From: Gammaproteobacteria bacterium
GTDB taxonomy: Bacteria; Pseudomonadota; Gammaproteobacteria; Ga0077536
Assembly (NCBI GenBank): GCA_016191285.1
Contig: JACPPA010000040.1
Coordinates: 1-43,200 of the forward strand
Length of the DNA: 43,200 nt
Direction of reading: 5' to 3'
A program made the position numbers and the translations under genes. Under the pieces are notes generated by a model. It was not told the DNA's origin. It did not search any database and saw only the letters and a list, made by a program, of their open reading frames with translations. The number at the start of each line of letters is the position of its first letter. Positions within the stretch are counted from its first letter, which is position 1. Shown piece after piece: positions 32,024 to 34,014 of the stretch.

Positions 32024-32216
32024 GGAAAGTCAATCTTCACTCAAAATTTCAAGCTATATTCGCGATCAAAGTCGCTCTCACGATTTTTGGCCCCCGCACC
32101 GGCAAAGATTCGCCACTAAAGCGGCTCCCACAGGGAGCGCTTCGCGTCGATGCGTCGGCTGTGGTGGGAGCGGATTTAGCCGCGAATCTTCTTAACGGAT
32201 CAATCTGTCACAGCTA
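32024..32216. repeat. Intergenic region with GTGGGAGC-family palindromes
   Basis: About 190 bp upstream of the methyltransferase gene. It holds CGCCACTAAAGCGGCTCCCA near 32111 and the opposite-oriented GTGGGAGCGGATTTAGCCGC at about 32164-32183, together an imperfect long inverted pair. The methyltransferase promoter is presumably in 31960-32100. The adjoining hairpin series begins at 32217. Confidence 0.75.
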
Positions 32217-32328
32217 GGGAAGCTCTGCAAAAGGCAGAGCTTCCCGCGGCACAGGGAGGTGCCGCCATTTTCGATGGTTGCAAACCATTGAAAATGAAGG
32301 GAAGCAAAAATCATACTTTTTGCTTCCC
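32217..32328. other. Four adjoining hairpins in tandem
   Basis: Four inverted repeats follow one another with almost no spacing. H1 is 32217-32245, stem GGGAAGCTCTGC (12 bp, perfect) with loop AAAAG. H2 is 32246-32265, stem GCGGCAC (7 bp, perfect) with a 6-nt loop. H3 is 32266-32296, stem CATTTTC-G-ATGGTT, 14 pairs plus one G/T position, with a 3-nt loop. H4 is 32299-32328, stem GGGAAGCAAAAA (12 bp, perfect) with loop TCATAC. H1 and H4 share the outer GGGAAGC. One arm of H4 encodes the last codons of the PQQ protein and its stop lies in the loop. H4 and H3 could end transcription of that gene, but four in a row exceeds a normal terminator. A small mobile or structured RNA element is the alternative. 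Confidence 0.85.
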
Positions 32329-34014
32329 GTACTCTGAATAAGTCCAGGATGGAAACGCGCGCATCACACCGCTCATCGAGCCTGAGAACACGACACCAGG
32401 GATCGCCGTAACCGCGGCGGTTTGCGCCGGACTGCATCGCTCGCGTCCCGCGCACGATACCGGCGGCGCCCGCCACAAGGGTTTGCCATCGGCCAGATTA
32501 AGGGCGAAAAGTCCACCGCCCACGTTTGGATCCAGCGCGACCTTATCGCCAAAAAATAGGCCGCCGGCCCAGCGCGCGTCCGACACCGCGACATACACCG
32601 CCTTGTCATCCGCCGCCGATCCCCATTCGACGCCGCCTAAAATGCCCCCTTTGCCGACGCGCGTTTTCCACACTACTTTGCCTTTGTGATCCGGATCGAT
32701 GGCGTGCATGACGCCGGTCTTCTGACCCCCCAGCAAGAGTCGTTTGCCATTCGCGAGGGTGACCAGAATCGGCGAGGAACCCATGTCGTGATCGGGGCCT
32801 TCCTCGCGCGGACAATTGGCCTTGGCTTGCAGACTACAGGCCACGTTCCAGGCGTCCCCCGCCAAGCCTTGATAGGTCCACAGCACCTTGCCCTTGTCGA
32901 GCGACATCGCCATCACACCGTCGCTGGTCAGGGTCGCTGGCTGCGTGTAGTTATCGCCGGTCGCGACATATAAACGATTGTGTGCGACATCGATCGTCGG
33001 CGACGACCACACGCTCGCGCCATTCGGCCCGATCTGCACCTTACCGCTCGGCCCTTTGCTCTCGTGCGTGGCGGCCTCGGGTATGGTGTATTGCTTCCAA
33101 TTCACTTTGCCGGTTAGCGGTTCGACCTGCATGACGGCGCCACGGAATGTGCAGCATTTGTAGTTGGGATCGGCAGCCAGACCTTCTTCGAGCGACGACA
33201 CGGGGATATAAAGTTTGCCGTCGACGAGTTGAAAACCGCCCGTTAGACGTGCCGCCGGATGCGCATCGGCAACGAGTTGCCACTCCGTCGCGCCGGTGAC
33301 CGCATCCACCGCGTAAGCGCGACCGCTCACATCGCCGAAGAACGCGAGTAAGTGATCGTCTACTTGGCCGACGAGAATCGGGCCTTTAACCGCCGCATCG
33401 GCTTGAAAAGTCCAATGCGTGCAGCCGCGCTTCGCATCGAGCGCGTACACCGCACCGCTGCGGCTGCCGACGAATAGGCGTCCATCGACGATCGAAGCAT
33501 GCGCTTCCGCCAAGGTCTCGCCTGGGAACGCAAAAGCCCATTGCAGTTCCAATCGCTTGACGTCGTCGCGATCGAGCTTGGCCTGTGCTGCCGGTTGGAA
33601 GCGCGAATTCTGTTGATTCGCGCCCCAGCCATTCCACTGCGGAGCGGCAAACGGATCAGCCACCGGCCACTTCGCCGGCGGACATTGATTGGTTGCCTTG
33701 GCTGCCCAATTGGCGTCGTAGGGCTTGCCGGTCACATATTCGGCGACGGCAATCCGTTGCGGTCCGCTCAAGTTGAAGTTGCCGACCATTCGCATGACGC
33801 CAGTTTCCAACGCACGGACCACCGCCGTCGGTTGCATTTGTTTCAATGTTTCTGGTGTCGGTGCGCGCGTCGCACCACCCTCGTGGCAGCCCGCGCAAGT
33901 TTTAGTGTAGATCGCCTTACCGTCCAACCCATCGGCGGCATAAAGCGTGTTCGCCGATACGGCGCCGAGCACGATGAGAATCCAACCGGAAATTCTTGTT
34001 TTAAGCACGACCAT
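32311..34014 (-). CDS. Cytochrome c / PQQ beta-propeller dehydrogenase, C-terminally truncated
   Basis: 567 residues. After a signal peptide ending near A26-A27 comes a cytochrome c domain with C40-x-x-C43-H44 (TKTCAGCHEGG) and a later Met-rich LETGVMRMVGNF that may hold the axial ligand. Then a PQQ-type propeller: QWNGWGANQQNSRFQ, GSRSGAVYALDAKRGCTHW, SVWSSPTIDVAHNRLYVATG, LLGGQKTGVMHAID. This order resembles polyvinyl-alcohol dehydrogenase-like quinohemoproteins of the periplasm, which need cytochrome c maturation. Such proteins are about 80 residues longer; here homology stops at GVVFSGSMSGVMRAF and a foreign tail PSWTYSEYGKQKV follows, encoded by the junction and the hairpin element. One or more final propeller blades are missing, so activity is doubtful. 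Confidence 0.82.
   Translation of the reverse strand: MVVLKTRISGWILIVLGAVSANTLYAADGLDGKAIYTKTCAGCHEGGATRAPTPETLKQMQPTAVVRALETGVMRMVGNFNLSGPQRIAVAEYVTGKPYDANWAAKATNQCPPAKWPVADPFAAPQWNGWGANQQNSRFQPAAQAKLDRDDVKRLELQWAFAFPGETLAEAHASIVDGRLFVGSRSGAVYALDAKRGCTHWTFQADAAVKGPILVGQVDDHLLAFFGDVSGRAYAVDAVTGATEWQLVADAHPAARLTGGFQLVDGKLYIPVSSLEEGLAADPNYKCCTFRGAVMQVEPLTGKVNWKQYTIPEAATHESKGPSGKVQIGPNGASVWSSPTIDVAHNRLYVATGDNYTQPATLTSDGVMAMSLDKGKVLWTYQGLAGDAWNVACSLQAKANCPREEGPDHDMGSSPILVTLANGKRLLLGGQKTGVMHAIDPDHKGKVVWKTRVGKGGILGGVEWGSAADDKAVYVAVSDARWAGGLFFGDKVALDPNVGGGLFALNLADGKPLWRAPPVSCAGRERCSPAQTAAVTAIPGVVFSGSMSGVMRAFPSWTYSEYGKQKV

Follow-up and report, generated by a model that had tools for sequence, protein, structure and literature searches.

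What are the four near-perfect hairpins that follow one another at 32217-32328 of this DNA, and why do they overlap the 3' end of a PQQ dehydrogenase-like gene? The window (the whole stretch of 43,200 nucleotides that was analysed) is contig C5 of a 5.1-Mb host genome, G000, which is assembled in 60 contigs. The original prediction was that a small mobile element of several hairpins, or else a structured RNA, had landed in the gene and truncated it. It proposed a search for multi-copy occurrences with sharp ends and folding of both strands, and named as the alternative an ordinary 3' region, that is, a single-copy sequence at an orthologous position.

The stems and loops of the four end-to-end hairpins are real and sit where they had been placed (Table 1). 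The third hairpin contains the predicted single G-T pair, but its stem counts 14 bp and not 15. Half of a fifth hairpin had been overlooked. Alignment to full-length copies shows that the window holds the first 136 bp of an element, whose left end directly follows the target CTAG; its hairpin 5 is broken near the loop and the remainder of that hairpin is lost. Folded as RNA, 32200-32345 is far more stable than shuffled sequence on both strands (-73.4 kcal/mol, z -9.3 on the + strand; -74.1 kcal/mol, z -10.2 on the - strand), and none of 200 shuffles was as good for either strand. An intrinsic terminator was set aside, as five hairpins are present and no T run was seen by eye after a stem.

Table 1. 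Positions of the hairpins, the mobile element and its neighbours in the window
Feature	Position	Strand	Basis
REP-type inverted repeat adjoining the element and separate from it	32105..32190	.	In the window, the REP core is matched intact at 32166 and 25114
CTAG, left copy of the YTAR target site	32214..32217	+	Sequence; identical YTAR on both sides in 23 of 33 full-length genome copies
Right-truncated five-hairpin mobile element, positions 1-136 of 152	32218..32353	+	Alignment to full copies
Hairpin 1, includes the left terminal inverted repeat GGAAGCTCTGCAAAAG	32217..32245	+	Stems 32217-32228/32234-32245, 12 bp, loop 5
Hairpin 2, GCGGCAC-AGGGAG-GTGCCGC	32246..32265	+	Stems 32246-32252/32259-32265, 7 bp, loop 6
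Hairpin 3, variable loop	32266..32296	+	Stems 32266-32279/32283-32296, 14 bp including one G-T, loop 3
Hairpin 4, loop TCATAC, A run and T run flanking the loop	32299..32328	+	Stems 32299-32310/32317-32328, 12 bp, loop 6
Hairpin 5 remnant: 5' arm, loop AGGAT (32346-32350), 3 nt of the 3' arm	32332..32353	+	Comparison with full copies
PQQ dehydrogenase-like gene, N-terminal cytochrome domain	32311..34014	-	C-terminal ~65 codons missing

The search of the host genome with 32195-32345 gave at least 41 strong matches with E of 6e-50 or better (best 40 of 129 candidates scored). Because the sequence is multi-copy and its copies have sharp ends, it is not a single-copy 3' region. Most full copies are 151-153 bp long, start with GGAA(G/T)CTCTGC and finish with CAGAG(G/T)TTCC; two copies of 165 and 167 bp carry internal duplications. 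Blast over the fetched host loci distinguished 86 pieces (33 full, 28 with the left end only, 24 with the right end only, 1 with neither), which are not 86 separate copies, since short variants yield two pieces each and tandem copies are present. Covariance-model matches at E<=0.01 numbered at least 116 in the host genome (best 150 of 1588 candidates; a small number of places gave a match on each strand). Host variants of about 86 bp and 224 bp, judged from covariance-model match lengths, have the same ends and different middles (L062, L064, L175-L178). The element of about 152 bp is built of hairpins and has no transposase of its own. Three elements searched against a plasmid collection and one against a phage collection gave a single 28-base chance match and otherwise none.

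The flanks of these copies record movement. Identical 4-bp flanks were found in 24 of the 33 full host copies and are YTAR in 23 of them; YTAR precedes the left end in all 28 left-intact pieces and follows the right end in 22 of 24 right-intact pieces. The 16 bases at 32218-32233 (GGAAGCTCTGCAAAAG) are identical, 16/16, to the left end of a host insertion sequence (L088, 818-2008) that has CTAA on both flanks and a DDE domain match split into two adjoining pieces. A second insertion sequence (L085, 1323-2480) has TTAG on both flanks and ends similar to those of the element, whose right end GGAACCTCTGAATAAG resembles them. The transposase at L085 is intact, with 317 aa, the Pfam domains DDE_Tnp_1 and DUF772, and a score of 337 bits with the NCBIfam IS5 model NF033581, whose cut-off is 140. 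From the copies, the YTAR duplication and the ends common to resident insertion sequences, we conclude with near certainty that this is a mobile element of IS5 type, namely a non-autonomous MITE. A resident IS5-family transposase would move it in trans, cutting at the GGAANCTCTG ends.

REP-type elements are themselves palindromic, mostly intergenic and multi-copy, and the element resembles them in these respects. It differs in its DDE-type ends and its target duplication, whereas REPs are associated with tyrosine (HUH) transposases. A REP/BIME or REP/IS200-type element was ruled out by the identical YTAR flanks, since the REP/IS200 type is defined by an HUH transposase and the lack of a target duplication. 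The element is not one of the REPs of the window, as had been claimed, but REPs are sometimes its target. Copy L028 is inserted precisely within such a REP and has duplicated TTAG. In the fetched loci, uninterrupted REPs of this target type were seen in 19 distinct contexts, and halves of five different REPs adjoin an element end. TTAG/CTAA in the centre of the host REP palindromes serves the element as a target, in L028 and in other REP-flanked copies.

A second genome, the single-contig G144, was scanned over 800 kb and gave 53 blast pieces in total. Full copies account for 24 of them, and in 21 of these the 4-bp flanks are identical (YTAR in 15 cases). Another 15 are copies of a variant of about 205 bp, 13 with identical flanks and all with the right end present (e.g. 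L245-L260, L270-L281). Of the other pieces, 7 come from the ~205-bp variant and 2 from a short one, and 5 are partial. A search of G144 returned at least 41 full-length matches (best 40 of 164 candidates).

The PQQ protein does lose homology at the element junction: the G005 orthologue continues for 65 residues beyond 'GVMRAF', with the next gene likewise a methyltransferase by eye, and five further orthologues examined also extend beyond the junction. The last ~13 residues and the stop codon of the protein are encoded by the element. Since about 195 bp of the gene, perhaps more, are absent together with the right end of the element, the junction is one of deletion (or assembly misjoin) and not the clean insertion implied by a mobile element that landed in the gene. 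The gene truncation is real in the assembly and may be an assembly fault.

The junction is of a recurrent kind in the host. Sixteen host pieces end at positions 134-143 of the element and 15 begin at 14-18, in both cases close to a terminal-hairpin loop. Their missing ends were not found within 150 bp, tandem copies and 224-bp variants being left out. The recurrent truncations have different flanking DNA each time (e.g. L001, L004, L007, L029, L030, L033-L035, L037, L171-L173). No break at 134-143 or 14-18 was seen among the pieces in 800 kb of G144. Either the terminal hairpins are deletion hot spots in the host lineage, or short-read assembly failed there. For the window copy, there is thus a real possibility, somewhat short of even odds, that the end at 32353 and the lost C-terminus are assembly errors and that the living cell has a full element and an intact gene. 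The recurrence of the breaks in a genome of 60 contigs and their lack among the few partial pieces of a single-contig genome favor such errors. However, the missing ~195 bp of gene exceed a local error, and positions near the loops of terminal hairpins are plausible real breakpoints. This possibility concerns the window copy only and is compatible with our main explanation.

The hairpins proved to be conserved well beyond the host, with paired changes in many families. We compared three alignments: A1, made before any covariance-model search, and A2 (38 elements) and A3, both fitted to a covariance model; A2 and A3 together make a set of 77 elements from about 70 genomes by hand count. In A2, standard pairs fill 97.9% of cells (shuffled mean 80.4%), 44 of 56 pairs show changes on both sides (shuffled mean 23.7) and the covariation score is 0.468 (0.136 when shuffled). 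None of 500 shuffles reached the observed value on any of five measures, and structures shifted by 1-3 columns were only 36-53% paired; both controls leave relatedness in. Pairs changed on both sides are spread over hairpins 1 to 5 (6, 6, 12, 10 and 10, respectively), hairpin 5 being favored where L080-L084 are concerned, as these were retrieved through an exact match to a hairpin-5 pattern. In A1, 31 of 56 pairs are changed on both sides.

Paired changes as numerous as these, in adjacent and near-perfect hairpins, could also come from mutation alone, if replication template switching at quasi-palindromes copied one arm onto the other in an otherwise ordinary IS5-type MITE. E. coli is known to correct quasi-palindromes in this way. 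What template switching fails to explain is a difference between the strands. Were the two strands of equal weight, stem mismatches of the G-T and A-C kinds would be expected in equal numbers. The 77 elements, which share ancestry so that the counts are inflated and not independent, have 154 G-T against 56 A-C mismatches. Without one frequent A2 pair there are 137 against 54, and element by element G-T exceeds A-C in 43, A-C exceeds G-T in 9 and 25 are tied. The A1 alignment has 28 G-T against 8 A-C, or 22 against 8 when the structure is predicted on the opposite strand. This excess of G-T over A-C is not explained by template switching, which we regard as improbable.

In agreement with the mismatches, the + strand gives the more stable fold in 62 of the 77 elements with RNA parameters and in 51 with DNA parameters. 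The latter figure, and the joint occurrence of structure and mobility, would suit a folded + strand that works as single-stranded DNA, for instance by forming a structure that is recognized in transposition or replication. On the other hand, the strand difference is the larger with RNA parameters, and the 4-bp YTAR duplication and terminal inverted repeats fit a DDE (IS5) transposase, an enzyme that acts on double-stranded DNA. A role as single-stranded DNA is thus quite unlikely. Because G-T is in excess over A-C, selection appears to act on one strand, and we consider it probable that a one-strand structure is under selection. Of the two alternatives of the original prediction, the mobile element is established by the copies, target duplications and IS5-type ends; a conserved structure with a strand preference is supported as well, in what would be a predicted RNA.

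Which loops are conserved led us to a candidate ligand. Counting in two to three flanking bases, GGA lies at the loop of hairpin 2 in 72 of the 77 elements and at that of hairpin 5 in 73, compared with 3, 4 and 5 elements for hairpins 1, 3 and 4. The string CANGGANG is present in 67 of 77, and ACANGGANGT in 44 of 77 with its reverse complement in none. The two GGAs are 88-95 nt apart (about 91 nt) in 59 elements of at most 64 measurable, and two elements among those shown have spacings of 72 and 116 nt. The restriction of GGA mainly to the loops of hairpins 2 and 5 and their near-constant spacing are further features that template switching does not explain. The hairpin 4 loop also follows a pattern, AA[CT]C[AG]C[AG] ahead of the T run, in 56 of 77 elements; the window copy has TCATAC (32311-32316).

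A review gives the SELEX consensus of CsrA as RUACARGGAUGU, mostly with six-base loops and with AC and GU paired, in hairpins of mostly four base pairs or fewer (PMC7652899). Hairpin 2 has the form of this site, and the window copy carries the CsrA-like GGA loop motif at 32255-32257. These matches suggest that, upon read-through from a neighboring gene, the + strand RNA would fold into five hairpins, of which hairpins 2 and 5 might offer their GGA loops to CsrA/RsmA; in this way the RNA would recruit or titrate this global regulator. An internal promoter was set aside: TTGAAA...CATACT was seen by eye in one subfamily but not in others.

A CsrA gene, matched by eye, is present in 199 of 397 genomes of a phylum sample, including all 33 carriers of the element and 166 of 364 others, and in 324 of 370 genomes of a class sample (by eye again, 79 of the 83 carriers and 245 of the remaining 287). 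The four carriers without a CsrA match are the drafts G116, G142, G196 and G211, and three of their four families otherwise have CsrA. This association agrees with the CsrA reading, yet it tracks phylogeny. Against that reading, hairpin 2 has seven pairs, more than most of the SELEX hairpins described in that review (PMC7652899). The ~205-bp variant of G144 bears on it as well. This variant has an insert ahead of hairpin 5 with two extra short GGA palindromes, GTCCACGGATGGAC and GCCCAGGGAGGGGC, but its predicted fold shows GGA in just two or three loops (8 copies fold into 7 loops, 3 of them with GGA, and the other 7 copies into 5 loops, 2 of them with GGA). A CsrA role is our best guess and the most attractive reading of the loops; that CsrA/RsmA is the ligand of the element RNA remains a tentative proposal.

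Another reading of the folded transcript requires no specific ligand. In a MITE of the NEMIS/ERIC type, hairpins in read-through mRNA would be signals for processing or stability through RNase III or RNase E, and such roles are known for Correia/NEMIS and ERIC (PMC10969869). For 70 host copies that are 110 bp or longer and have sufficient flank, we examined the context, calling genes by a longest-ORF heuristic. Copies are mostly intergenic, as this reading would have it: 54 lie between open frames on both sides, 12 within a called frame, and 4 have no called frame on one side. Few are at divergent promoter regions, the 54 intergenic copies being between convergent genes in 17 cases, divergent in 6, with both genes along the element in 12 and both against it in 19. 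Signals of this kind would have no need for GGA in two specific loops throughout about 70 genomes, and we judge this reading unlikely, while less so than the two given above. No clear strand bias relative to the flanking genes was found among the 70 copies, which speaks against the RNA being used by the host at most sites.

Taken as a whole, our explanation of the locus is a truncated IS5-type MITE whose five hairpins are kept by selection on one strand; we give it a probability of roughly 60%, the step to CsrA/RsmA being the less likely part. It does not account for the conserved hairpin 4 loop. If the loops do bind CsrA/RsmA, each insertion would give a host transcript a CsrA decoy or recruitment site, and a selfish element would be spreading sites for a global regulator.

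The element was compared with known systems. With IS5-family MITEs it shares terminal inverted repeats, the 4-bp YTAR duplication, the lack of a transposase, many copies and a genomic insertion sequence with ends of the same kind. It differs from them in a body whose five hairpins are conserved, show paired changes and carry loop motifs in more than one class, and in having, by eye, more than one type of terminal inverted repeat. To our knowledge, the core of a MITE is seldom conserved when its hosts are distant. What lies between the transposon ends of a MITE is usually regarded as dead filler; in this element the core is conserved, with a one-strand fold and fixed loop motifs. NEMIS/Correia, ERIC and QMITE are likewise small, multi-copy and structured once transcribed, but are described with other ends, QMITE2 with 7-9 bp direct repeats (PMC10969869, PMC5896051). 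Two described Thiomargarita MITEs do not resemble the element, their direct repeat being of 10 bp and their ends TATAG. With CsrB/RsmY/RsmZ it has in common GGA in hairpin loops at more than one site, hairpin 2 having the CsrA SELEX form. Unlike these RNAs, it usually has two GGA hairpins, is mobile, is present in many genomic copies and has no Rfam match.

At gathering score, Rfam gave no match in the window. Among 20 element loci it gave one tRNA, outside the element, and nothing else, and at a loose threshold 11 matches to one full element, all far below gathering scores. No description of the element was found in the open-access literature, a search whose coverage leaves out most subscription journals. 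On these comparisons we call it an IS5-type MITE whose core is a conserved and apparently strand-specific five-hairpin structure. The covariance model R1 (14 elements, 151 positions, 56 pairs) is now available for a repeat that is missing from Rfam.

With R1, matches at E<=0.001 were found in at least 83 of 370 class genomes, the host counted; carriers may have been missed because only the best 8 candidates per genome were scored. The best match is weak (E above 1e-8) in 12 of the 83. In the phylum sample 33 of 397 genomes match, of which 27 carry the 'same phylum' label and are outside the class; we suspect that these are Zetaproteobacteria. The exact hairpin-5 search added as carriers a Nevskia MAG, Gammaproteobacteria RIFCSPLOWO2_02_FULL_61_13 and BWSM_30. 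The conserved core is thus present in about a fifth of the sampled class genomes and in genomes outside the class. It is doubtful whether it can be raised to a new, widespread class of mobile structured RNAs on IS-type ends, with two (in one variant up to four) putative CsrA/RsmA-type sites, in Gammaproteobacteria and at least one other class.

Some distant members (L126, L129, L134, L135, L137, L139 and L152) keep the order of the hairpins and have, by eye, other terminal repeats (CAGGCTGTTGAAAAA or AGAGGCTGTCGCAAAAG). This suggests that the core was taken up by more than one type of insertion sequence, and it may therefore outlast a given pair of ends. In the single-contig genome G054, the core also occurs in tandem arrays with a period of about 122-124 bp, at L206, L209 and L215 (G054:C1:2569103-2569521) and at G054:C1:13813-14533.
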